From NCBI GenBank assembly GCA_951640195.1, contig OX621174.1, positions 1,364,001-1,428,000 of the forward strand: a stretch of 64,000 nucleotides of DNA. Reading direction: 5' to 3'. Positions within the stretch are counted from its first letter, which is position 1; every line of letters begins with the position of its first letter. The notes beneath the pieces were generated by a model. The model had not been told where the DNA came from and did not search any database. It saw nothing but the letters and a program-made list of their open reading frames with translations. The position numbers and the translations under genes are program-made. Shown here piece after piece: positions 3,250 through 49,376 of this stretch. This DNA is from Porpolomopsis calyptriformis (taxonomy: Eukaryota > Basidiomycota > Agaricomycetes > Agaricales > Hygrophoraceae).

Positions 3250-3608
3250 TGTTAGACGGCAGTCTAGGGTTGATCGCAAGGTTTTACTTCAGGCTCTGGG
3301 TGTAGGGTTTTAAAGGGTTGGAAGACTACTGATTGGGGTGTTAACGAAAGAAACAGACTTATCCTAAGTCTATCTACTGCTAGCTTTATATACTAGCTAA
3401 GTATGAGTCATACTGACTACGTGTGAGTCGTAACGACTATGGATGAGTCATGTAGATAAGGAGAGTGATGGTAGACTAAATATAGATATGGCTTGGTCAC
3501 CTTCTATTACTAAGCAGAGCTTGGGTGGCTAAGCGGTTATTGATGTAAACTGTCTGATGTAAATAGGAACAGACGAGCAAAGGAAAAAGAAAAAATATAT
3601 CTCTGACA
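3250..3608 (-). repeat. 5' LTR of element A (359 bp)
   Basis: Read on the minus strand it starts TGTCAGAG and ends TCTAACA. The length equals that of the solo copy at 47893-48251, which is bounded by a clean target duplication and so fixes both edges. It contains two TGAGTCA sites, an AGATAAG site and a TATATAAAG box about 30 nt before the predicted transcript start. Confidence 0.95.
3349..3392 (-). promoter_or_regulatory. LTR-A TATA box and predicted transcript start
   Basis: TATATAAAG occupies 3392-3384 on the minus strand. The 12-mer AAGTCTGTTTCT at 3360-3349 begins about 31 nt downstream and is exactly complementary to the primer-binding site, so R probably starts there. Position of the start is inferred, not measured. 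Confidence 0.7.
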
Positions 3609-6104: not shown

Positions 6105-6516
6105 TGTTATAAACTGGTTATTGTCGAGATGGTTTTACTTCAGAGTGCTCTGTCCCAAGACGATGATAATATCTCAAGTCCTAGTTATTGGGGTGTCTAA
6201 CGAGGAATCAGACTTAAGGTCTGAGTACAACTAACTAGGAGTTTATATACTGACTATGAACTGCAGATGAGTCAGTGTTACAATGAGGAGTACATGCGGT
6301 TAAGTAAAAGATAAGCATGATAAGAGATGGAGCATGTGAAGGGATGAAACATAAGTAGTTGGAAATGAAAAGTATCCTATCTAAGGTAAATGAAAAAGGT
6401 AAGGCTATGGGGAATCCCATAGCATAATCGTGGGGAATCCCAAGCAAAGATAAGATAAGTCCGACTAAGCAACAATGACTAACATAGAGAAGGAATGAAA
6501 AATTACATCCGTGACA
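6105..6516 (-). repeat. 3' LTR of element B (412 bp)
   Basis: Minus strand TGTCACGG to TTATAACA. It matches 22371-22782 with scattered transitions. Its right neighbour is the 5-bp target duplication of element C, which inserted next to this LTR edge. Confidence 0.95.
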
Positions 6517-6677
6517 TACTGTCATGAAATTGGCGTTCATTCTCTTAAAAATTCTCTCTTTTCTTTGTTCTTTTCTTTTCTTTCTTATAACAGTTCTTTT
6601 AGGAGGAAGGCTGTCTTTATTGGCAGCAGAAATTACTTGTACAAAGGGAGGAGTCCATGTCCGACTAGCTAATTATA

Positions 6678-7508
6678 CTAGTCCGTCTTGGCAATCTCCT
6701 GCACCATACTGTCCCTCAAGAACTCTACAAAACTCGACACTACTTGACCATCTATTGCGGCCAACTTATTACCCCAGTAGATTGCCCCATTGGTGTCACC
6801 ACCGGAGGCCTGCAACTCGGCAGCCTTCCCTTCAACGAAACTCATTGCTATCTTTCTCGCTTCCTCACCCAACCAATCGTTGGTGGGACTCCACAACAAA
6901 CTGGGAGGAATTTCTTCCTCCTTGATCTTGACGTTGACATTAGTCAACAACAACGACAAATCTTCCACTAAGAATAAAGAGTCAACAACCACGAAGAAAG
7001 TGAGGGAATTGAGAAGCTTACCACTAGATAAAGAACTCAATGGACCAGGGGTCCAAGGACGGAAGGGGGGACTGGCATCCCAGTCAACTGCCTCCTTCTT
7101 GACAGAAGGGAGGGAATCAGCCCACTTGTCAGACCCCCAATTAACCTGCTCCTCCAAAGGGAGCTGGGAAGTAGGGGGAGGGGCGTCATCATCCCAAGCT
7201 AAAGAAGGGAAAGCCTATTATCAACAAACACAGACTAATAAAGACAAAACAAAATACTCACCAAGCGGATCCTCCATCAAGCCGCAAGCATGCTGGATTG
7301 GCCAGCGAATGAACAGACACTTCTTGACTTTGTGCTTGCCACCGCAAGCAAAGCAGGAGAAAGAAGACCAACAGAGGTCAGCGTCGGAGGGGATGCGCTG
7401 GAGGTAGTAGTGAAACGAATCACAATCGAGAAAGACAGGAGCAGTGCGGTGCACCACTCCAGACTGCTTGAAGAATCGGACATAGTAGCCTTGGTGGGAG
7501 GGAGTCAT
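6678..7508 (-). CDS. LTR-encoded antisense protein, CCHC-like knuckle (copy 1)
   Basis: Three exons on the minus strand, 7508-7262, 7198-7022 and 6967-6678, with introns of 63 nt (GTGAGT to TTTAG) and 54 nt (GTAAGC to TTAG); the second has a length divisible by three and may be retained. The product is about 237 residues. Exon 1 holds CFACGGKHKVKKC (CX2CX3HX4C), a near-zinc-knuckle, and a further Cys in HAC. Exons 2-3 are acidic and Trp-rich (WGSDKWADS, PSLLWSPTNDWLGEEARK) and end in a helical tail. A TATA box lies 57 nt upstream. The gene is antisense to the retroelement. I do not recognise a family. A nucleic-acid-binding regulator or accessory Gag-like role is inference only. Confidence 0.72.
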
Positions 7509-7555
7509 GATGAATTAACAAGGATTGAACTGAAGCGTAGGGATACAACCCCACA

Positions 7556-7565
7556 CCTTTTATAT
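7556..7565 (-). promoter_or_regulatory. TATA box of the LTR antisense gene
   Basis: Minus strand ATATAAAAGG begins 57 nt before the ATG at 7508, a normal distance for a TATA promoter with a short leader. It is kept in the copies near 14604-14613 and 44541-44550. Confidence 0.6.
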
Positions 7566-7704
7566 GCTCAGACACAAAGGGAAGACCAAAAGGAGGTTCC
7601 TCAGTCAAAGAAGAGAAACCTGATACCCCGGACAAGAGATAGAAACAGTGGCGATCTCATAACTAGAAGAATAATAGGAACCAGTCATGAGACAGCACAG
7701 CCTG

Positions 7705-7767
7705 ATACTGCGGAAGGCTATGCCCAATAGAGTTGAGTCATCAAAACAACACAGCCTTCCGCAGTAT
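7705..7767. repeat. Perfect 15-bp inverted repeat between the two LTR-C promoters
   Basis: Arm ATACTGCGGAAGGCT at 7705-7719 and its exact reverse complement at 7753-7767, separated by 33 bp that include TGAGTCA (7734-7740). Both arms are intact in all three LTR copies (14753-14815 and 44339-44401) although the spacer varies. It lies between the divergent TATA boxes, so it is a candidate operator, or a hairpin in the antisense RNA leader region. Confidence 0.85.
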
Positions 7768-7866
7768 GACTAAGAACAATGGCAAACCTTAAACCGGAAG
7801 CTGTGAACAATAGAAAATAGGGTGACTGCAGAAGCTGACTCATAGTGACTCCTATTTTAGAAATAC

Positions 7867-7907
7867 TATATAAACCCTGAGGGCGAAGCGGATCATCACT
7901 TCGTCCT
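7867..7907 (+). promoter_or_regulatory. LTR-C sense TATA box and predicted transcript start
   Basis: TATATAAA at 7867-7874, then CACTTCGTCCT at 7897-7907, exactly 30 nt after the TATA start. That 11-mer is complementary to the primer-binding site at 8229-8239, which supports 7897 as the RNA 5' end. A TGACTCA site precedes the box. Confidence 0.75.
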
Positions 7908-8015
7908 CCTGTGAGATTACTTGTAGTAGCATGAACGCAATCAGAATCATCAGACTTCTTTTCCATCAGAACAAGAAAAGAGAAACACAAAACACAACTA
8001 CTAAGCCAACCATTC

Positions 8016-8519
8016 ATGCCCATATTCCCTAAACTCTCAGCAGAGGCACGCAACGGATTCAACCCGCAGAACAACTTCTTTGTAGAAGTAAAACTTAATT
8101 CAGAAGGAATCATCACTCTATACGAAGACGTCCCTGTCAGAACCTTCTTCTACATCCTACTAGACTTATTGAGCTCCAAGGCCTGCCTTGTGATTAACGA
8201 AAAAACTTGCAACTACAGTCATGACATTAGGACGAAGTGTTGGAATCACACTGCAGACTGGTTATCCTGCTTAATATTGGACGACAAACGATACCATCTC
8301 CTTAGACAAGAAACATTATTCTTTTCAGCAGCTAAAGGAAGCATAAACTATTTGGCCTACCATAAGCTTGCGAATAAACCAATCAGAATTCAAATAGATA
8401 TACACGAAGACCCTAACTATGAGTCAACCATACCAGGATCCGAGAGATACCACTGTAACTGCGCTCAGTTACCAAGCAGGAATAGAGGACCTGGAGACTC
8501 CTGCAAGCTCCAAGAGTGA
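8016..8519 (+). CDS. ORF0 of element C, starts inside the LTR and crosses the primer site
   Basis: 167 codons from the ATG at 8016 within the LTR, through the LTR end (8226) and the primer-binding site, to a stop at 8519, where it overlaps the gag start (8419) in another frame. Only the 5' LTR can express the full form; the 3' and solo LTR copies keep the first 69 or so codons and then diverge. Visible sequence: FPKLSAEARNGFNP, VRTFFYILLDLLSS. No known domain recognised. Yeast Ty1 likewise begins its first ORF inside the LTR. An ATG at 7931 in another frame precedes it, which weakens the case unless splicing or leaky scanning occurs. Confidence 0.5.
   Translation: MPIFPKLSAEARNGFNPQNNFFVEVKLNSEGIITLYEDVPVRTFFYILLDLLSSKACLVINEKTCNYSHDIRTKCWNHTADWLSCLILDDKRYHLLRQETLFFSAAKGSINYLAYHKLANKPIRIQIDIHEDPNYESTIPGSERYHCNCAQLPSRNRGPGDSCKLQE
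8229..8239 (+). promoter_or_regulatory. Self-primer binding site of element C
   Basis: AGGACGAAGTG, two bases after the LTR, is the exact reverse complement of CACTTCGTCCT at 7897-7907, the predicted RNA 5' end. No tRNA-type TGG start is seen. Confidence 0.8.
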
Positions 8520-9849
8520 ACCCCAAAAAGAGACACCTGAAGGAGTATTCTGGGGGTCCACCACCAGTTTCTCTAGAACAGCAGATGAACCTGAAGATGA
8601 AGGGGATGACGAAACTGAAAAGGAGAAAGGGCTCTTCACTATGTTAGGAAGGAAATTGAAAAGGAAGGCAGGAGGAGAACCTGAAGCAAGCAGAGCATTA
8701 AGTAGCAGAGGAAGGGGAATAGGAAGGGAAAGCACGACTTACCCAAGTTGAACTGGATTACTAGACCCAGTACCCACGAAACCAATAGAGAAAACAGGGC
8801 TCACTGGATGGGGACTGAAGATTCCGATCGCCCACTCAGGAACGGAAACACTGACCAAGGAACCAAAAGGGAAAGGAAGAGAGGAGCCACCTGAAGGAAG
8901 TCCCAAGAAGACTCTGATATTAAATCCATTTGCACCACCGCCTGGAGGATCAATAGGAGGAGGTGGGCAACCCGCTGGACCTAGAAGGCCACCTGGAGGA
9001 CTGCCACCTGGAGGACTGCCTCTAGGACCACCCCCAGTGGGACCAGGACCAGGACCACCTGGAGGGGGAGTTCCAAACATGAGGATTCCCAAGCCAACAG
9101 AGCCAGACTATTTCGATGGAGACAGGAGCAAGTGGAGAACATTCCTTATCCAAGCCTACCACTATTTCCTCCATTTCCCTGACTTCTTCGATGAAACAAC
9201 TAATTCCAGAAACCAATGTCTCTACTTATTGAATTGGTTTACTGGACTTGCAAGGCCATGGGCTGACGCAATATTGAGTACAAGAGATCTTCCACATGAA
9301 TCTCTGATGCTGAGAGATTGGAGACTATTGTTGGAACGAGGAACCATTTTATATGGACCAATTAATGAAGTGCAGGATGCATGAGAAGCCCTAAGGACTA
9401 TTAAACAGGAAAAATCGATCACGGATTATTATGCTAAATTCCTCGAAAAGGCGCTCCAATGCAATTATGGAGAAGAGACCCTCGCTGAGATATTTTACCA
9501 AGGATTCAAAGATCAGATCAAAGATATCATGGTTACCATTGAGAGGCCTGGAACCTTGCAAGAACTATTGCAAGTGGCCTTAACCATTGAAGGAAGAATT
9601 CTAATAAGGGCCAAAGAAAAAAGAAGAGTTGAGCCCACCGGAAGCTACCGAAAACCCATAGCCATCAAAGTCACTCAACTAACAGAGGAAGAACGAAAAA
9701 GCCTGATGAAAGAAGGGCGATGCTTCTTCTGTAGACAAGCAGGTCATATGGCCAGGGCTTGCCCTAGAAAGAAATTTGGAAATATCCAAGCCAAGAAAGT
9801 TGACGAAGAAGGAAAGGAAGAGGGAGAGGAGGATTTTGCTCAAGGCTGA
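8419..9849 (+). pseudogene. gag of element C (two TGA stops)
   Basis: One frame from the ATG at 8419 to the stop at 9849, broken only by TGA at 8749 and 9382. A charged N-terminus and a Gly-Pro-rich linker (8940-9080) precede the capsid-like retrotransposon gag domain (YFDGDRSKWRTFLIQAYHYF, then WFTGLARPWAD). A zinc knuckle CFFCRQAGHMARAC (CX2CX4HX4C) near the C-terminus is followed by an acidic tail. It forms the particle that packages RNA. Its first 101 nt overlap ORF0. Pol starts 62 nt downstream in another frame. Confidence 0.9.
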
Positions 9850-9911
9850 AGAAAGACTCTGCATTTTCTTTAGCCTGACCAAATAAGGACTTAAAAGACA
9901 AAGACTCGACT

Positions 9912-12900
9912 ATGTACATTAGCGCCAACCCTAATGAAGGACAGATTTATACTCAAGTGAACCTTCATGAAGGAAAGAATGAATGGATGACCAAAGCCCT
10001 TATTGATTGCGGAGCATCCTCACTCTTTATCTCACCAAAGGTGGTAAGAAATCAGAAGCTGAAAACCACACCACTTAAAAAACCCATCAAAATTATGAAC
10101 GTTGACCAAACAATGAATCAAATGGGAAAAATCACTCAGAAGGTTCAACTTAACCTAGACCTAGGAGGACATAAGATGAAAGAAGAATTCCTTATAGCAG
10201 GAATAGGAGAAGACGACTTAATCATTGGAATAGACTGGTTGAAGCAACATAACCCAGAAATCAATTGGGAAACAGAGAAAATTACCTTTAGCCGGTGCCC
10301 AAAATTTTGTCGAACCAAGAAAGGAAAGAACTGCAAGAAAATGAAGATCCAGAAAATTAGGATGGAAGAAACAGAAATGGAATATTGGAGTCCAGATCTA
10401 GACAATACCTGGATACGAGAATGGAATGTATTGGGAGAATATCAACCCAAAAAAGGTGACCAGATCTTGACTCTGAAGAAAGGACTAGACAAGCGGATAG
10501 CAGCAGGTTTTACTATATCTCAGAAGGTAGCAGAACCGACCACCATCAAAGAAGGGGCAAAAACCTTTGAAGAACTGGTGCCAAAGCCTCTACATGACTA
10601 TAGGGACGTCTTTGATAAAAAGGCGTCGGAAAGACTATTACTTAGGAAAATGTATGATCACCCGATCAACCTTATACCCGAAAAACCACTGCCCAATAAA
10701 AAACCCTATGCAATGGCACCAATTGAGGCTGAAGCACTGAAAGAATTCATTGCTGACAACCTAAATAAGGGGTATATAGTCGAATTAGAATCTCGAGCTG
10801 CTTCACCAGTCTTCTTTATCAAGAAAAAAGATGGGACACTAAGACTCATAGTGGATTATCGGGGATTAAATGATGCAACTGTGAAAGATCGTTACCCTCT
10901 ACCATTGACACAGAGATTGCTCGATAACCTGGCCAGCGCAAAAGTCTTTACCACATTGGATGTGCGATGGGGATATAACAATATTCGGATCAAGGAAGGG
11001 GACGAATGGAAAGCTGCCTTTAATACAAAAGAAGGACTCTTTGAACCACAAGTAATGTGGTTCGGGTTAACAAACACCCCAGCAACCTTTCAGCGAATGA
11101 TGAATACTATTTTCTGTGACCTAATTGGAAAATATGTTGAAATATGCATTGACGACATCCTTATATATTCAAAAGATGAAAAGGAACAACTAGGACATAT
11201 TTGAGAAATACTCAGAAGGTTAAGAGAAAATGATCTCTTTCTCAAACCGGAAAAATGCTACTTTTTCAAAGATTCTGTGGAATATCTAGGACATCTTATT
11301 AGCCAGGAGAAAATTGAGATGGATCCAGGAAAAGTCAAAGCAGTAATCGATTGGCCTACACCATGAAGAGTAAAAGAAGTACAATCCTTTTTAGGGTTTG
11401 CAAACTTCTATAGATGCTTCATTCCTGAATTTTCCAAAACAGTGAGACCAATCACGGAACTGTTAAAAAAAGGGAAGAAATAGGAATGGGGGGAGAGACA
11501 GGAACAAGCATTTCAAATCCTTAAAAAGAAATTCACCACAGCACCAATTTTGGCAATGGCGAACCCAGAAGAGCTATACATCCTAGAACGCGATGCCTCG
11601 GATTTCGCCATTGGATCTATTATCTCACAATATGGAAGAGATGGAAAGATACATCCAATAGCCTTTTATTCAAGAGGAATGAATGACGCGGAAAGGAATT
11701 ATGAAATTTATGACAAAGAACTGTTGGCCATAATAGCGTCACTTGAAGAATGGAGACATTATCTGGAAGGGGCAAAACATTAAGTAACTATCTTATCAGA
11801 TCACCAAAATCTGCAGTATTTTGCCTCAGCAAAAACCCTGACCAGATGACAAGCAAGATGGAGCTTATTCCTGACAAGATTTGATTATATAATCAAACAT
11901 CGACCTGGAAGACTAGGTGGAAAACCAGATAAATTGTCAAGATGAGCAGATTACCAGATAGAAGGAGAAGAAAACCAGGGACAGATTCTATTGAAGCCAG
12001 AAGTTTTCAAAATAAAAGCTCTGTTTCGAGGACATATGACAACAGTTAAAGATCACCCTATACTACAAAGAATTCGAGCCTCTGAAGCTTTCGACTCTGA
12101 AATCGAAGAAGCCTTGAAAATAGTCAAAGGAGGGATGCCAAGAAAACTCAGAAAAGGATTGGAAGACTGGAACACCGAGAATGGTCTAATCCTTTTCAAA
12201 GGAAAGGTCTATGTCCCAAAAGACAAGGAAATAAGGAGGGATTTAGTACATCTGCATCATGATACCTTGGAAGGAGGGCATCAAGGAGAATACCGAACGC
12301 TGGAACTACTCACCCGAAATTACTGGTGGCCGGGAATCACGACTTATGTCAAACATTATGTGAAAACCTGTGACACCTGTAATTGAAAGAAAAGATCCTA
12401 TCACAGAGCCAAAGGAAGATTGATACCAATACTGCCTTCAGAAAGACCATGGGAGACGGTAACAAATGACTTCATTATGGAACTACCCAAATCGGAAGGT
12501 TACAATGCCATCTGGGTTGTGGTGGATCAGTTAACAAAAGAAGCTCATTTTATACCAACAACTACTGAGGTGGACACAGAGGAGACAGTAAAGCTATATA
12601 TGAATCATATTTGGAGGCTACATGGGGTCCTGGAGAAGATGATTTCAGACTGCGGAATGCAATTCACATCGAAACTAATGAGGGGAATTTTCAAGAAACT
12701 TGGGATCGAAGGGGCCTATTCAACAGCATATCACCCTCAAACCGATGGACAAACTGAACGCATTAACCAAGAATTAGAGCAATACCTCAGAACATTTTGT
12801 AATTATCGACAAAATGACTGGGCCAAGTTCTTACCAATGGCAGAATTCGCCCACAATAACAATGAAAATTCATCCACGAAAAGGACTCCATTCTATGCTG

Positions 12901-13556
12901 CAAGGGGATATCATCCAAAGATGGCCATCCCTCAGGCCGGAAAGTCTGAAGTACTAAGAGCCCAAGATCTGACTGAAGAAATAAAAAGAGTTCAAGAAGA
13001 AATCAAGGCATCAATCAGGCTAGCCCAGAATACAATGAAAGACTATTACGATAAGAAAACGGAAGAAGTACATAGGGAGGTTGGAGATAAGGTCTGGCTG
13101 GATGCAACAAACATCAGCACTACTGCCCCTAGCAAAAAACTGGCAGATAAGAGATTGGGACCCTTTGAAATAGAAAGGAAACTCTCAGACCAAGTCTACA
13201 AATTGAAATTACCAGGGACGTACCGAATACATCTGGTCTTTCATGGGAATTTACTCAGCACTTATGAGGACTCAGAGATAAAAGGGAGAAGATTGGAAGA
13301 ACCGGAGGGAATAGAAATAGAAGGGGAGGAAGAGTACGAGGTTGACCAAATCCTGGATGGAAGGCTCTGGCAAAACCAAAAACAATATTTGGTACAGTGG
13401 AAGGGGTACTCTATTTTGGAAAACTCCTGGGAACCCGGAAAAAATCTGGAGAATGTGGCGGAAAAGGTCTCAGAATTTCATGACAAGCATCCCGACTTCA
13501 AATTTGAGAGGAGAAGAGCTTTGGGTCCATCCTCGCATAGCTCCGGTGGACTCTAG
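9912..13556 (+). pseudogene. pol of element C: PR-RT-RNaseH-IN-chromodomain, seven stops, no frameshift
   Basis: A single frame of about 1215 codons. Protease: ALIDCGASSLFI. RT: LRLIVDYRGLND, FTTLDVRWGYNNI, EICIDDILIYS with both Asp. RNase H: LERDASDFAIG and YEIYDKELLAI. Integrase: H-H-C-C finger ending VKTCDTC, then Asp in WVVVDQ, Asp in MISDCG, Glu in GQTERINQE. The chromodomain starts at EEEYEVDQILDG and contains YLVQWKGY, which marks a chromovirus. Stops are TGA at 11202, 11364, 11847, 11943 and 12384, TAG at 11481 and TAA at 11781. The lack of indels points to recent decay by base substitution. Confidence 0.95.
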
Positions 13557-13567
13557 GGAGGGGGTAA

Positions 13568-15274
13568 TGTCATGAAATTGGCGTTCATTCTCTTAAAAAT
13601 TCTCTCTTTTCTTTGTTCTTTTCTTTTCTTTCTTATGACAGTTCTTTTGGGAGGAAGGCTGTCTTTATTGGCAGCGGAAATTACTTGTACAAAGGGAGGA
13701 GTCCATGTCTGACTAGCTAATTATACTAGTCCATCTTGGCAATCTCCTGCACCATACTGTCCCTCAAGAACTCTACAAAACTCGACACTACTTGACCATC
13801 TATTGCGGCCAACTTATTACCCCAGTAGATTGCCCCATTGGTGTCACCACTGGAGGCCTGCAACTCGGCAGCCTTCCCTTCAATGAAACTCATTGCTATC
13901 TTTCTCGCTTCCTCACCCAACCAATCGTTGGTGGGACTCCACAACAAACTGGGAGGAATTTCTTCCTCCTCGATCTTGACGTTGACATTAGTCAACAACA
14001 ATGACAAATCTTCCACTAAGAATAAAGAGTCAACAACCACGAAGAAAGTGAGGGAATTGAGAAGCTTACCACTAGATAAAGAACTCAATGGACCAGGGGT
14101 CCAAGGACGGAAGGGGGGACTGGCATCCCAGTCAACTGCCTCCTTCTTGACAGAAGGGAGGGAATCAGCCCACTTGTCAGACCCCCAATTAACCTGCTCC
14201 TCCAAAGGGAGCTGGGAAGTAGGGGGAGGGGCGTCATCATCCCAAGCTAAAGAAGGGAAAGCCTATTATCAACAAACACAGACTAATAAAGACAAAACAA
14301 AATACTCACCAAGCGGATCCTCCATCAAGCCGCAAGCATGCTGGATTGGCCAGCGAATGAACAGACACTTCTTGACTTTGTGCTTGCCACCGCAAGCAAA
14401 GCAGGAGAAAGAAGACCAACAGAGGTCAGCGTTGGAGGGGATGCGCTGGAGGTAGTAGTGAAATGAATCGCAATCGAGAAAGACAGGAGCAGTGCAGTGC
14501 ACCACTCCAGACTGCTTGAAGAATCGGACGTAGTGGCCTTGGTGGGAGGGAGTCATGATGAATTAACAAGGATTGAACTGAAGCGTAGGGATACAACCCC
14601 ACACCTTTTATATGCTCAGACACAAAGGGAAGACCAAAAGGAGGTTCCTCAGTCAAAGAAGAGAAACCTGATACCCCGGACAAGAGATAGAAACAGTGGC
14701 GATCTCATGACTAGAAGAATAATAGGAACCAGTCATAAGACAGCACAGCCTGATACTGCGGAAGGCTATGCCCAATAGAGTTGAGTCATCAAAACAACAC
14801 AGCCTTCCGCAGTATGACTAAGAACAATGGCAAACCTTAAACCGGAAGCTGTGAACAATAGAAAATGGGGTGACTGCAGAAGCTGACTCATAGTGACTCC
14901 TATTTTAGAAATACTATATAAACCCTGAGGGCGAAGCGGATCATCACTTCGTCCTCCTGTGAGATTACTTGTAGTAGCATGAACGCAATCAGAATCATCA
15001 GACTTCTTTTCCATCAGAACAAGAAAAGAGAAACACAAAACACAACTACTAAGCCAACCGTTCATGCCCATATTCCCTAAACTCTCAGCAGAGGCACGCA
15101 ACGGATTCAACCCGCAGAACAACTTCTTTGTAGAAGTAAAACTTAATTCAGAAGGAATCATCACTCTATATGAAGACGTCCCTGTCAGAACCTTCTTCTA
15201 CATCCTACTAGACTTATTGAGCTCCAAGGCCTGCCTTGTGATTAACGAGAAAACTTGCAACTATAGTTGTGACA
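13568..15274 (+). repeat. 3' LTR of element C (1707 bp)
   Basis: Same length as the 5' LTR and a few per cent or less different. Early differences are transitions, mostly at CpG (for example ccga/ctga and acga/atga). It contains the second copy of the antisense gene and of the inverted repeat. Confidence 0.97.
13726..14556 (-). CDS. LTR-encoded antisense protein, CCHC-like knuckle (copy 2)
   Basis: Same three-exon structure as the gene at 6678-7508, shifted by 7048 bp: exons 14556-14310, 14246-14070 and 14015-13726. It has no stop. Amino-acid differences from copy 1 include Tyr8His, Arg21Cys, Asp to Asn, Lys to Glu and Thr to Met near the end. Several correspond to CpG transitions, so they look like passive decay rather than selection. 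The knuckle CFACGGKHKVKKC is unchanged. The predicted TATA box is near 14613-14604. As part of the 3' LTR it would also read outward from the purine-rich tract side. Function unknown. Confidence 0.7.
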
Positions 15275-22370: not shown

Positions 22371-22782
22371 TGTTATAAACTGGTTATTGTCGAGATGGTT
22401 TTGCTTCAGAGTGCTCTGTCCCAAGATGATGATAATATCTCAAGTCCTAGTTATTGGGGTATCTAATAAGGAATCAGACTTAAGGTCTGAGTATGACTAA
22501 CTAGGAGTTTATATACTGACTATGAACTGCGGATGAGTCAGTGTTACAACAAGGAGTACATGCGGTCAAGTAAAAGATAAGCATGATAAGAGATGGAGCA
22601 TGTGAAGGGATGAAACATAAGTAGTCGGAAATGAAAAGTATCCTATCTAAGGTAAATGAAAAAGGTAAGGCTATGGGGAATCCTATAGCGTAATTGTGGG
22701 GAATCCCAAGCAAAGATAAGATAAGTCCAACTAAGCAACAATGACTAACATAGAGAAGGAATGAAAAATTATGTCTGTGACA
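22371..22782 (-). repeat. 5' LTR of element B (412 bp)
   Basis: Minus strand TGTCACAGAC to TTATAACA. It contains AGATAAG-type sites, one TGAGTCA site and TATATAAA. Followed at 22783-22787 by the target duplication cctgg. Confidence 0.96.
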
Positions 22783-35575: not shown

Positions 35576-36155
35576 TGTCAGGACCGAGGTTCCCAGGGGG
35601 TTCTCTGGGCCTAGCACGACACAATATAGAGCTGATAAGTGATCCAAAGGGACTGTTGGATTCAGGATGGAACCACAGTATGTAGACAAGTAAGTCAAAA
35701 CTAGGGAGTCTACTACGAAAAAGCGTATCTTTATATATAAAGCAATAAAAGGGAAATCTATGAAGGACTATAAGGGACGAGTGTTTGAAGGTCATAGGGA
35801 CCCGATGTGTAAGGGATAATGGTCCGTAATATAGTCTTTAAAGGGGGTTCAATAGGAGTACAGAATGAAGTGAAATGAAAGGGTGAAAGGGACTGTCATA
35901 GATGATCCGAGTGCCACAGTGGCTCAGAGTGCGCGAAACGAGTGTGCTCGTTTGGCGCAGCTTTCAAGGAGCCCGATGAACCAAGTTTGGAGTGAATCCA
36001 ATCACTGGTTCTTGAGTTATGGTCTCTTTAGTGATTTTGGCATAATCACTATAAAAGGTGCGCAGAACGAGTATGCTCATTTCGCGCAAGGTGTCACAAC
36101 GTCACCTGAGAGTGCGCAAAACAAGTGTGCTCGTTTGGCGCAGATATTTCTGACA
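35576..36155 (+). repeat. LTR of family E (580 bp), without matching target duplication
   Basis: TGTCAGGACC to TTTCTGACA, equal in length to the solo copy at 48736-49315. Left flank ggaaa and right flank ggttc differ: left of it is the DUF6532-like gene, right of it an integrase in mid-domain. It contains TTTATATATAAA and three 30-nt hairpin repeats (35930-35959, 36059-36088, 36113-36142). Confidence 0.93.
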
Positions 36156-36906
36156 GGTTCCTTCAAGACCTCTGAAGCTGTGTGTCACGACTACTGGTGG
36201 CCCACCATCAGGAGAGATGTTGAAACTTATATCCGTGGTTGTGAAACATGCCAACGCACCAAGGCATCCCAACTACCTGCGAAAACCCCACTCCACCCCT
36301 TCGACCCTCCTCCCTGACCCTTGGATATAATTACAGTCGATCTTGTAGGCCCCATACCTGAATGTCAAGGCTACAATGCAATCCTCATGATTGTCGATCA
36401 TTTTTCAAAGGCTGTCAAGTTTGAAGCCACCCACATTGAGTTGAACTCTGAAGGTTTCACAAAAATCATCCAGGATCGCGTTATCCAAGATCACGGTGTC
36501 CCCTGATGCATCATCCACGATCGCGATCTGCGATTTGTTTCCAAATTCATGACTAATCTCTTCTACCTTCTGGGCACCTCCCAGAACGTTTCCACAGCTT
36601 ATCATCCCCAGACCGATGGCCAATCCAAATGAATGAACCAGACACTTGAACAGTACCTTTGTGTGTTCGTCAATCATCGACAGGATAATTGGAAGGAATG
36701 GCTTGCGTTAGCAGAGTTCTCGTACAATAATTCAGTTCACGCTGCCACACAACAAACCCCCTTCTATGTCAACTACGGCCAAAACCCCTGGAAAGGAAAC
36801 GACACTGCAAGAGAAGTCCGAAACGAATCTGCGACCAAATTCGCTGATCAAATGAAAAATATCTATCAAGCAGCAGAAGCTGCTCTCAAGAGAGCCAACA
36901 AAATGA
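36156..36906 (+). pseudogene. integrase of element D, first part
   Basis: Begins in mid-domain (VCHDYWWPTIRRDV, then GCETCQRTK). The core follows: Asp in DIITVDLVGP and LMIVDHFSKAV, Asp in IIHDRDLRFVS, Glu region GQSK then MNQTLEQYL. Stops occur at the positions after DPPP (TGA), DHGVP (TGA) and GQSK (TGA), each where Arg is usual. The chain stops at KRANKM, where element G inserts, and resumes at 47090. Confidence 0.9.
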
Positions 36907-43879: not shown

Positions 43880-45587
43880 TGTCACAACTGTAGTTGCAAG
43901 TCTTTTCATTAATCACAAGGCAGGCCTTGGAGCTCAATAAGTCTAGTAGGATGTAGAAGAAGGTTCTGACAGGGACGTCTTCGAATAGAGTGATGATTCC
44001 TTCTGAATTAAGTTTTACTTCTACAAAGAAGTTGTTCTGTGGGTTGAATCCATTGCGTGCCTCTGCTGAGAGTTTAGGGAATATGGGCATGAACGGTTGG
44101 CTTAGTAGTTGTGTTTTGTGTTTCTCTTTTCTTGTTCTGATGGAAAAGAAGTCTGATGATTCTGATTGCGTTCATGCTACTACAAGTAATCTCACAGGAG
44201 GACGAAGTGATGATCTGCTTCACCCTCAGGGTTTATATAGTATTTCTAAAATAGGAGTCACTATGAGTCAGCTTCTGCAGTCACCCCATTTTCTATTGTT
44301 CACAGCCTCCGGTTTAAGGTTTGCCATTGTTCTTAGTCATACTGCGGAAGGCTGTGTTGTTTTGATGACTCACCTCTATTGGGCATAGCCTTCCGCAGTA
44401 TCAGGCTGTGCTGTCTTATGACTGGTTCCTATTATTCTTCTAGTCATGAGATCGCCGCTGTTTCTATCTCTTGTCCGGCGTATCAGGTTTCTCTTCTTTG
44501 ACTGAGGAACCTCCTTTTGGTCTTCCCTTTGTGTCTGAGAATATAAAAGGTGTGGGGTTGTATCCCTACGCTTCAGTTCAATCCTTGTTAATTCATCATG
44601 ACTCCCTCCTACCAAGGCCACTACGTCCGATTCTTCAAGCAGTCTGGAGTGGTGCACTACACTGCTCCTGTCTTTCTCGATTGCGATTCATTTCACTACT
44701 ACCTCCAGCGCATCCCCTCCGATGCTGACCTCTGTTGGTCTTCTTTCTCCTGCTTTGCTTGCAGTGGCAAGCACAAAGTCAAGAAGTGTCCGTTCGTTCG
44801 CTGGCCAATCCAGCATGCTTGCGGCTTGATGGAGGATCCGCTTGGTGAGTATTTTGTTTTGTCTTTATTAGTCTGTGTTTGTTGATAATAGGCTTTCCCT
44901 TCTTTAGCTTGGGATGATGACACCCCTCCCCCTACTTCCCAGCTCCCTTTGGAGGAGCAGGTTAATTGGGGGTCTGACAAGTGGGCTGATTCCCTCCCTT
45001 CTGTCAAGAAGGAGGCAGTTGACTGGGCTGCCAGTCCCCCCTTCCATCCTTGGACCCCTGGTCCATTGAGTTCTTTATCTAGTGGTAAGCTTCTCAATTC
45101 CCTCACTTTCTTTGTGATTGTTGACTCTTTATTCTTAGTGGAAGATTTGTCATTATTGTTGACTAACGTCAACGTCAAGATCGAGGAGGAAGAAGTTCCT
45201 CCCAGTTTGTTATGGAGTCCCACCAACGATTGGTTGGGTGAGGAAGCGAGAAAGATAGCAATGAGTTTCGTAGAAGGGAAGGCCGCCGAGTTGCAGGCCT
45301 CCGGTGGTGACACCAATGGGGCAATCTACTGGGGTAATAAGTTGGCCGCAATAGATGGTCAGGTAGTGTCAAGTTTTGTAGAGTTTTTGAGGGACAGTAT
45401 GGTGCAGGAGATTGCCAAGACGGACTAGTATAATTAGCTAGTTGGACATGGACTCCTCCCTTTGTACAAATAGTTTCCGCTGCCAATAAAGACAGTCTCC
45501 CTCCCAAAAGAACTGCCATAAGAAAGAAAAGAAAAGAACAAAGAAAAGAGAGAAATTTTAAGAGAGTGAACGCCAATTTCATGACAC
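43880..45587 (-). mobile_element. Solo LTR of element C (1708 bp, TSD ctacc)
   Basis: Inverted relative to C; flanked by ctacc at 43875-43879 and 45588-45592. It arose by insertion of a C element into the antisense gene of G followed by LTR-LTR recombination. It carries an intact third copy of the LTR gene. Confidence 0.97.
44598..45428 (+). CDS. LTR-encoded antisense protein, CCHC-like knuckle (copy 3, solo LTR)
   Basis: Exons 44598-44844, 44908-45084 and 45139-45428, giving 237 residues and a TAG stop. The knuckle reads CFACSGKHKVKKC (CX2CX3HX4C). Position 21 is Tyr here, Arg in copy 1 and Cys in copy 2, as expected from repeated transitions. The gene stands alone in a solo LTR, with its own TATA box (44541-44550) and the inverted repeat upstream, so it could be transcribed without the rest of the retroelement. 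Its 3' end lies 159 bp before the LTR edge. The frame is open despite separation from gag-pol. Function not recognised. Confidence 0.72.
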
Positions 45588-47599: not shown

Positions 47600-48400
47600 A
47601 TGGACAACTTCTTCAGAATCAACGAACGTCTCTATGATCCAATCACAGACTCCACTGGCAAGGATTACAAATCACTGAAGGTCAGTAATAACATTGATGT
47701 TCTCATCCCACTTCACCCCACAGAAGTCGACTAACTGCTTGAACGCAATTTCAATGGTTCCATCTTCCTCCCCCACTTGCCTTCAACCGCTTGTCAAGCA
47801 TGGATCTACGAATCCAGTCCTGTCAATGCAGTCACAACCGTTCTGCAATTGGATGCTCAAGGTCATTTGCTCCAAATGTACCAACTCGTTTCTGTCAGAG
47901 ATATATTTTTTCTTTTTCCTTTGCTTGTCTATTCCTGTTTACATCAGACAGTTTACATCAATAACCGCTTAGCCACCCAAGCTCCGCTTAGTAATAGAAG
48001 GTGACCAAGCCATATCTATATTTAGTCTACCATTACTCTCCTTATCCACATGACTCATCCATCGTCGTTACGACTCACACATAGTCAGTATGACTCATAC
48101 TTAGCTAGTATATAAAGCTAGTAGTAGATAGACTTAGGATAAGTCTGTTTCTTTCATTAACACCCCAATCAGTAGTCTGCCAACCCTTTAAAACCCTACA
48201 CCCAGAGCCTGAAGTAAAACCTTACGATCAACCCTAGACTGCTGTCTAACAGTTTCCCCTTTGTCTGCCCTGGAAATCCATTGACAGTACCAATACCATC
48301 TCCCCGCTTCTCCCTGCTATGCACCTCAGTGGTTATTACAAGACTGTTCAAGACATCTCCAACGCCTGTTCTAACATTGCGCAGACGCGAATTTGAAGAG
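47600..48400 (+). pseudogene. Extra ORF of element D downstream of the chromodomain
   Basis: ATG at 47600 (MDNFFRINERLYDPITD), then LIPLHPTEVD, a TAA, NFNGSIFLPHLPSTACQAW and VLQLDAQGHLLQMYQLVS, where solo LTR-A (TSD gtttc) cuts in. After it a few more codons remain before a stop. It has no membrane segment and no recognised domain. Like the coiled-coil ORF of B it lies between pol and the 3' LTR, but I see no similarity between the two. Confidence 0.4.
47893..48251 (+). mobile_element. Solo LTR of family A (359 bp, TSD gtttc)
   Basis: gtttc at 47888-47892 and 48252-48256. Same length as the LTR at 3250-3608. TGACTCA sites near 48051 and 48090, then TATATAAAG and AAGTCTGTTTCT in the expected spacing. 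Confidence 0.97.
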
Positions 48401-48407
48401 AGGGTGA

Positions 48408-49376
48408 TGTTATAGCCACTTCATTTTTCATCTTGCCCACTTTCCTTATCTTTGATCTTATCTTATCTTATCTTTCTCCTTATCTAATCTTCTATCTTAT
48501 CTCCTCATAGATTGGGGGTGATAATGCCATTAGCCAATGAAGATGTGCTCTGCAGCAACTCCGCAGTAGCTGTACAAGGCTGCGCAATACTGCACATTAG
48601 TCAGCTGTTCCATGGATCATTGCTGTGGTTATCACAATCACAGCCCAGGCCTGGGTAGATATAAGTAGAGTACAGCATGCTTGTATTTCCCCAGTTTTCG
48701 TCCTTTAACGTTGTCACCACCAGTTTATGCGCTGGTGTCAGGACCGAGGTTCCAAGGGGGTTCTCTGGGCCTAGCACGACACAATATAGAGCTGATAAGT
48801 GATCCAAAGGGACTGTTGGATTCAGGATGGAACCACAGTATGTAGACAAGTAAGTCAAAACTAGGGAGTCTACTACGAAAAAGCGTATCTTTATATATAA
48901 AGCAATAAAAGGGAAATCTATGAAGGACTATAAGGGACGAGTGTTTGAAGGTCATAGGGACCTGATATGTAAGGGATAATGGTCCATAATATAGTCTTTA
49001 AAGGGGGTTCAATAGGAGTATAGAATGAAGTGAAATAAAAGGGTGAAAGGGACCATCATAGATGATCCGAGTGCCACAGTGGCTCAGAGTGCGCGAAACG
49101 AGTGTGCTCGTTTGGCGCAGCTTTCAAGGAGCCCGATGAACCAAGTTTGGAGTGAATCCAATCACTGGTTCTTGAGTTACAGTTGCTTTAGTGATTTTGG
49201 CATAATCACTATAAAAGGTGCGCAGAACGAGTATGCTTGTTTCGCACAAGGTGTCACAACATCACCTGAGAGTGCGCAAAACGAGTGTGCTTGTTTGGCG
49301 CAGATATTTCTGACAGCTGGTCTCTCTGTGATTTATGTCTCCTCTAAGTGACCTGAGTCCCTCTGCCGACATAACA
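48408..49376 (+). repeat. 3' LTR of element D (384 bp plus inserted solo LTR-E)
   Basis: TGTTAT at the left and ATAACA at the right. The interior has a run of ttatc (GATA-type) units near 48450-48500 and a TATA-like box. Interrupted at 48736-49315 by LTR-E. Followed by atgag. Confidence 0.85.
48736..49315 (+). mobile_element. Solo LTR of family E (580 bp, TSD gctgg)
   Basis: gctgg at 48731-48735 and 49316-49320. Nearly identical to 35576-36155, with three hairpin repeats at 49090-49119, 49219-49248 and 49273-49302. Confidence 0.97.

Follow-up and report, generated by a model that had tools for sequence, protein, structure and literature searches.

The antisense gene of element C

The stretch of DNA analysed here (the window: 64,000 nucleotides of the basidiomycete Porpolomopsis calyptriformis, positions 1,364,001 to 1,428,000 of contig OX621174.1) contains element C, a long terminal repeat (LTR) retrotransposon whose LTRs appear to hold a protein-coding gene on the opposite strand. 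The element spans 6520-15274 and is bounded by TG..CA. Its target duplication, CATAC, is 5 bp long, a purine tract precedes the 3' LTR, and in a repeat comparison within the window the stretches 6517-8226 and 13565-15274 are 98.5% identical. On the minus strand of the 5' LTR, from 7508 to 6678, lies a gene of 237 codons with a CX2CX3HX4C motif, made up of three exons (247, 177 and 290 nt in this copy) and two introns (63 and 54 nt). An earlier note on this DNA had described this gene, with its TATA box, exons, introns and cysteine-histidine motif, and we find it where that note placed it. Its further statement that the three copies in the window (6678-7508, 13726-14556 and 44598-45428) are all open also holds, as does its count of stops in the sense genes of the element: 7 in the 1215-codon pol frame and 2 in the 477-codon gag frame, that is, 9 in 1692 codons. 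The comparison of the two counts is weak, being made on three copies of which two belong to one element. The intron ends have pyrimidine tracts following TTGAT, TTGAC or CTGAT, which look like branch sites. The introns themselves would mark an antisense transcription unit, because a gene on the sense strand would be expected to lose its introns on retrotransposition. The features of the gene and of the element are collected in Table 1.

Table 1. Features of element C and its relatives in the window; counts out of 79 refer to the aligned LTR copies described in the text.
Feature	Position	Strand	Remarks
Antisense gene, exon 1 (ATG at 7508; CX2CX3HX4C)	7262..7508	-	dN/dS 0.11
Antisense gene, intron 1, GTGAGT..TAG	7199..7261	-	60-65 nt among copies; GT..AG in 79/79
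Antisense gene, exon 2, fast-changing middle	7022..7198	-	dN/dS 0.35
Antisense gene, intron 2, GTAAGC..TAG	6968..7021	-	53-58 nt among copies; GT..AG in 79/79
Antisense gene, exon 3, best conserved; stop codon 6680-6678	6678..6967	-	dN/dS 0.06
Antisense gene, TATA box (TATAAAA)	7558..7564	-	25-75 nt ahead of ATG in 79/79 copies
AATAAA, about 60 nt past the stop codon	6616..6621	-	within 114 nt of the stop in 72/79 copies
Antisense gene in 3' LTR, open	13726..14556	-	window copy Wb
Antisense gene in solo LTR, open	44598..45428	+	window copy Wc
5' LTR of element C	6520..8226	+	1707 bp, TG..CA, target duplication CATAC
3' LTR of element C	13568..15274	+	purine tract before 13568
Solo LTR, element C family	43880..45586	-	flanked by 5-bp duplication
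TATA box, the element's own sense promoter	7867..7874	+	ATATAAA core in 79/79 copies
Inverted repeat between the divergent TATA boxes, 18-nt arms 7705-7722 and 7750-7767	7705..7767	.	CpG-tolerant arm cores in 47/79, not in 32
Putative 5' end of sense transcript (self-primer), complementary to the primer-binding site	7897..7907	+	predicted
Primer-binding site AGGACGAAGTG	8229..8239	+	just inside 5' LTR; reverse complement of 7897-7907
Sense open reading frame with its start in the LTR (ORF0 or gag N-terminus)	8016..8519	+	first 70 codons within LTR
pol frame: protease, reverse transcriptase, integrase with chromodomain	9912..13556	+	7 internal stops in window copy

Copies in the genome and integrity of the gene

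Copies were collected from the genome (33.5 Mb in 17 contigs) in two ways. A DNA search in which 40 of 293 candidates were scored gives at least 40 copies, and 37 copies outside the window from its list, with the three window copies, make up a DNA-chosen set of 40. A protein search of the same genome gave 336 exon matches with the best 150 of 569 candidates scored, a lower bound; from about 70 further loci among the matches listed (a hand count), 40 were taken as a protein-chosen set, which is biased towards intact copies. The main set is 80 copies, or 79 in the alignments, from which one LTR fragment (L051) is excluded. The tallies of insertions and deletions (indels) and of open reading frames (ORFs) on 75 copies also exclude L038, L041, L059 and L066, and the selection counts and frame control on 73 copies exclude L042 and L043 in addition to these and L051. 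Five extra copies picked for divergence (L078-L082) stand outside the 79.

All 40 protein-chosen copies lie inside LTRs of the element C family, as the DNA-chosen ones do by construction. Each of the 40 DNA-chosen copies has 714 coding nucleotides, no exon indel and GT..AG at both introns, and 27 of them are free of internal stops, 26 with the ATG retained. Across the 79 copies, 46 are open from start to stop, 27 contain stops, 3 lack only the ATG and 3 have a frameshift or large insertion. Among the divergent extras, L081 and L082 are open, L078 has three stops, L079 is frameshifted and has an AA acceptor at intron 1, and L080 is truncated.

Changes in length keep to the reading frame: the coding sequences of 76 of the 79 copies vary in length by 0, 3 or 6 nt, and indels are frequent in the introns and untranslated regions (UTRs). 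Exon 1 is 247 nt long in 78 of 79 copies and 460 nt in one (L066, with a 213-nt insertion), exon 2 is 177 nt in 78 of 79 and 174 nt in one, and exon 3 is 290, 287 or 284 nt in 77 of 79 and 271 nt in two (L042 and L043). When indels relative to the window copy are counted in 50-bp bins over 75 copies, none of the ten wholly exonic bins has a single indel-bearing copy; the intron 2 bin (6970) has 58, the intron 1 bins (7170 and 7220) 35 and 4, the bin of the start codon and 5' UTR (7470) 36, and the 3' flank bin (6570) 37. Bin 6920, which holds the 3-nt deletion in exon 3, has 11 and bin 7020 has 1. The pattern is similar in the part of the sense ORF that lies within the LTR (hereafter gag-N), where bins 8020-8170 have 0-1 indel-bearing copies. 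Exon 2 occurs in two very different versions (for example, in Wa, the 5' LTR copy of the window, and in L018, L036 and L078) between exons 1 and 3 that are alike, as if the versions had been swapped through recombination between subfamilies.

Selection on the reading frame

Ratios of nonsynonymous to synonymous substitution rates (dN/dS) were computed by the Nei-Gojobori method from pairs that are not independent of one another. Across 656 pairs more than 10% apart, drawn from 73 copies, exons 1, 2 and 3 have dN/dS values of 0.114, 0.347 and 0.062, respectively, and the 70 gag-N codons of the same LTR have a value of 0.080. Variants in introns, flanks and promoter set the neutral expectation at 2.64 nonsynonymous (N) changes per synonymous (S) change and 0.20 stops per S. 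Variants shared by 5-40 copies comprise 74 N, 111 S and 2 stops (N:S 0.67), and those shared by 2-4 copies 44 N, 30 S and 9 stops. When CpG sites are excluded from these variant counts, a masking that the earlier note had proposed for dN/dS, the picture is similar.

The frame control compares the proportions of nonsynonymous and synonymous sites that differ (pN/pS). In the true frame pN/pS is 0.16 in exon 1 and 0.09 in exon 3, against 0.97-2.17 in the other two antisense frames and 0.48-0.87 in noncoding stretches read as codons. A naive reading of this test is cautioned by the mirror sense frame, which also gives low values in exons 1 and 3 (0.19 and 0.16), as expected because third positions coincide. 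A sense ORF at 6790-7407 was considered as the true gene and rejected: it is open in 12 of 75 copies and closed in 63. That the antisense gene is a chance ORF is rejected by the contrast of exon and intron indels, by the splice sites and by the codon-level constraint.

The timing of selection can be approached through the twin LTRs of single elements. In four elements these differ by 40.5 N and 20.5 S (about 2.0, vs the neutral 2.64) and by 1 stop, which is near neutral, and selection would therefore have been mainly on the transposing element. It seems that the frame was under selection mainly while the element spread and has decayed nearly neutrally after insertion. The claim of the earlier note that the gene is duplicated with its LTR and survives in solo LTRs is thus supported for duplication and presence, with 57 of 80 copies solo-like and 46 of 79 open, and has to be qualified for survival, as inserted copies seem to decay almost neutrally.

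The protein and its relatives

The predicted protein has no Pfam family at E <= 1, and hence no TRP28 (PF04195); exon 3 has no Pfam match, and the PDB contains no convincing match. The motif residues C52, C55, H59 and C64 are invariant in 39 aligned of 49 distinct stop-free exon-1 sequences. The CCHC knuckle has the spacing CX2CX4HX4C, where the antisense protein has CX2CX3HX4C. The Pfam family zf-CHY is touched by 13 of the 39 exon-1 variants (best E 0.0064), a weak hint of zinc binding. Low-confidence models predict a strand-strand-helix-strand order ahead of the knuckle in exon 1, and three long helices with one short one in exon 3.

In searches of a protein database, which need shared 5-residue words, neither the spliced protein (416 candidates) nor an alignment of exon 3 (7989 candidates scored) gave a match at E <= 1. 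This database covers fungi, as the pol of element C matched Tulasnella, Ceratobasidium and others, with a best identity of 63% among the best 120 of 5725 matches. Homology of exon 1 to gag-N was also considered and none was seen: in the one comparison with Gag, exon 1 shows no similarity to the 70 residues at the start of gag-N. A captured host gene is a possible origin; within this genome a host parent could be missed because 150 of 569 candidates were scored and a distant parent would rank below the LTR copies.

Element C, its promoters and its neighbors

Pfam matches in the pol of element C comprise protease, reverse transcriptase, integrase zinc-binding, integrase core, SH3_Tf2-1 and chromodomain, the C-terminal chromodomain of the integrase being supported by Chromo (E 4.1e-14) and SH3_Tf2-1 (E 8.6e-15); RNase H has no Pfam match in this pol and is matched only in other elements of the window. 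The primer-binding site (PBS) is the reverse complement of a site inside the LTR, and that self-primer is exact in 46 of 79 LTR copies and present in 79 of 79 if CpG-type changes are allowed. Within the window the pattern of the PBS complement is found 4 times, where 0.06 would be expected, 3 of the 4 being one site in three LTR copies. Judged by these features, element C is a self-priming-type chromodomain LTR retrotransposon (the Tf1/Tj1 arrangement), and in its integrase chromodomain and its PBS it agrees with the self-priming Ty3/gypsy chromoviruses of the Tf1/sushi type. Because in such an arrangement the PBS matches the 5' end of the transcript, the R region would begin near 7897, and we infer that the sense transcript starts there, 30 nt downstream of its TATA box. 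The U3 region would accordingly be about 1.38 kb long (about 6520-7896), with the whole antisense gene inside it.

The LTR codes on both strands: U3 contains the antisense gene, and R-U5 contains the 70 codons with which gag-N or ORF0 begins. This gag-N part is free of stops in 72 of 79 copies (dN/dS 0.08), and the main gag frame follows the ORF of 8016-8519 in a different phase. The two TATA boxes, each found in 79 of 79 copies, point apart across about 300 bp. Two TGA[CG]TCA sites, putatively AP-1-like, lie between them near 7736 and 7836, each in 73 of 79 copies; together with the inverted repeat they are possible shared control sites.

Genome-wide, the junction of LTR and PBS (with up to 3 mismatches) is found 17 times, against 1 for a reversed control, so that full elements are few relative to solo LTRs. 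By their flanks, 6 of the 80 LTR copies are 5' LTRs with a PBS, 7 are 3' LTRs with a purine tract, 57 have a 5-bp duplication with at most 1 mismatch and are read as solo LTRs, and 10 show none of these. Two LTR pairs on different contigs (L006/L010 and L046/L063) have identical 12-bp flanks on both sides, which suggests duplicated chromosome segments.

The window contains other repeats. A 412-bp pair (6105-6516 and 22371-22782) probably represents the LTRs of another element, and element C is located at or near the end of its first member. A 581-bp pair (35576-36156 and 48736-49316), with the family C solo LTR between its members, probably represents those of a third, and 3250-3608 and 47893-48251 are inverted 359-bp copies, 96% alike and 44 kb apart. 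Rfam has no match anywhere in the window at its gathering threshold.

What the gene may do

The sequence shows that the U3 region of element C holds a complete antisense protein-coding gene and indicates that selection kept its protein working in transposing lineages. We propose that the product is most likely an accessory protein serving the element, and to this reading as a whole we give a probability of roughly 0.55. The block of about 300 bp between the TATA boxes would fire divergently to yield gag-pol RNA on one side and the antisense mRNA, ending within the LTR, on the other. The genomic RNA being the sense strand, the antisense introns would remain unspliced in it and be copied intact. 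In the protein, a variable linker would connect an N-terminal zinc-knuckle-like part, which probably binds nucleic acid, with a C-terminus that is probably helical. The protein would act on the RNA, promoter or particle of its own element and so aid its spread. As it is constrained to nearly the same degree as the gag start in the LTR, a benefit to the carrier copy is suggested rather than self-repression. The leading candidate roles are those of a helper at the level of the particle, the RNA or the promoter, and of an anti-silencing factor.

Several observations weigh against this proposal. A product acting in trans from dozens of other copies would normally weaken selection on each copy, and the proposal needs the assumption that the action is biased to cis. 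Stops, 1-4 per copy, are present in 13 of the 40 DNA-chosen copies (about a third), and exon 2 is fast-changing. Variants found in single copies (42 N, 50 S and 5 stops) are likewise below the neutral ratio, perhaps through changes that divergent copies had borne before insertion, and 27 disjoint close pairs, with pN/pS of 0.36 and 20 stop differences, are below neutral too; selection that preceded insertion is therefore not cleanly separated from any that followed it, and there may be some later constraint. The knuckle falls below the match level of Pfam zf-CCHC in the window protein and in the exon-1 variants, the models have mean pLDDT (predicted local distance difference test) values of 48 for exon 1 and 54 for exon 3, and the protein searches described above found no homologue outside this genome. 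The conservation is that of one family in one genome, and the support as a whole is sequence evidence.

Alternatively, the antisense protein or mRNA might repress the element, with the dose of LTRs reporting the number of insertions. Such a dose would scale with LTR number, as the many solo-like copies and open genes would allow, and there are precedents in the antisense RNAs and truncated Gag of Ty1 (PMC7175516) and in the HBZ and APH proteins, which repress LTR transcription (PMC10186651). HBZ acts on AP-1/CREB factors (PMC10186651), and the shared promoter of element C has its two TGA[CG]TCA sites. However, a self-repressor supplied in trans should decay, since copies that lose it gain, yet the gene is under purifying selection about as strong as that on gag-N, which is hard to reconcile with self-silencing; nor does exon 1 resemble the gag start. 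We regard copy-number control as unlikely. If the antisense RNA alone mattered, it could pair with the sense RNA where the two overlap, at the 3' end of the latter, and the double-stranded RNA could lead to silencing, the frame being incidental. In a full element the sense RNA should indeed cover the antisense unit of the 3' LTR, and antisense promoters are known in LTRs (PMC7264820), but RNA control by itself predicts no conservation of a protein frame, so that the frame-specific constraint, the exon indels in threes and the conserved splice sites contradict it as sole function and make it very improbable. The three functions that the earlier note had offered therefore fare unequally, with an accessory protein fitting best and antisense RNA alone and self-silencing fitting less.

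An anti-silencing factor would counter host methylation or RNA interference and keep its own copy active. Purifying selection on a protein that benefits its carrier agrees with this, the promoter divergent from gag-pol could give early expression, and the fast exon 2 (dN/dS 0.35) would suit a conflict with the host. Neither homology nor fold supports the idea, and we regard it as a minority candidate. VANC-type proteins are known in connection with anti-silencing. More tentatively, the LTR may have become a self-contained gene with introns that stays in place when a solo LTR forms. The solo copies, many of them open, would then make up a scattered stand-alone gene family, and its product would act in trans on elements that are still complete, by helping them, by countering their silencing or by sensing their copy number.

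LTRs are usually regarded as regulatory sequence and solo LTRs as scars that encode no protein, solo-LTR formation being the usual way in which such elements are deleted. An accessory gene in element C would be in an unexpected location, in the end repeats of a retrotransposon and on the opposite strand, and was apparently kept working during its spread. With a gene under selection in the LTR of element C, its solo LTRs are copies of that gene, and others like it could go unseen where genome annotation masks LTRs along with other repeats.

Comparison with known systems

Several known elements share some of these properties. The mouse mammary tumor virus (MMTV) encodes Sag in a sense ORF of its 1.3-kb LTR, an accessory protein in an unusually long LTR, as in element C, and the Sag coding region is intact in almost all endogenous MMTV copies, most of which have broken virion genes (PMC3026287). 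Sag differs in being sense and spliced from upstream into the 3' LTR (PMC3026287), whereas the gene of element C runs antisense, carries introns of its own and fits entirely in the LTR, in solo copies too. The antisense protein, which matches no Pfam family at E <= 1, shows no Sag homology. In human T-cell leukemia viruses (HTLV), HBZ and APH are likewise antisense, spliced, protein-coding and LTR-driven, but their antisense RNA starts in the proviral 3' LTR (PMC10186651), whereas the unit of element C fits wholly in the LTR. Tf1/Tj1-type elements have, like element C, a PBS complementary to the 5' end of their mRNA (PMC4600332), and element C differs from them in carrying an antisense gene in an LTR of 1.7 kb. 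In rice, the LTRs of Retrosat2 are long, and an ORF0 is described upstream of its gag-pol ORF (PMC3485330). An antisense gene complete within an LTR was not found in the literature searched, which leaves out most subscription papers.

A further likeness is to antisense additional ORFs of LTR retrotransposons, namely gene23 of Grande and those of RIRE2, Retand (TRP28), PvRetro13 and the Boty element of Botrytis, the name brtn of the last being taken from a cited title alone (PMC7264820, PMC11963269). These too are antisense accessory genes, with a promoter of its own in Grande and a fungal host in Boty, but their place is the internal region from pol to the 3' LTR (PMC7264820, PMC11963269). A solo LTR would thus lack them, whereas the gene of element C lies wholly in U3. 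The TRP28 domain (PF04195) of Retand has no match in the element C protein. Whether antisense accessory proteins help or restrain their element is a question that element C shares with Grande, Retand and Boty (PMC7264820, PMC11963269), and for which its LTRs provide a natural test.

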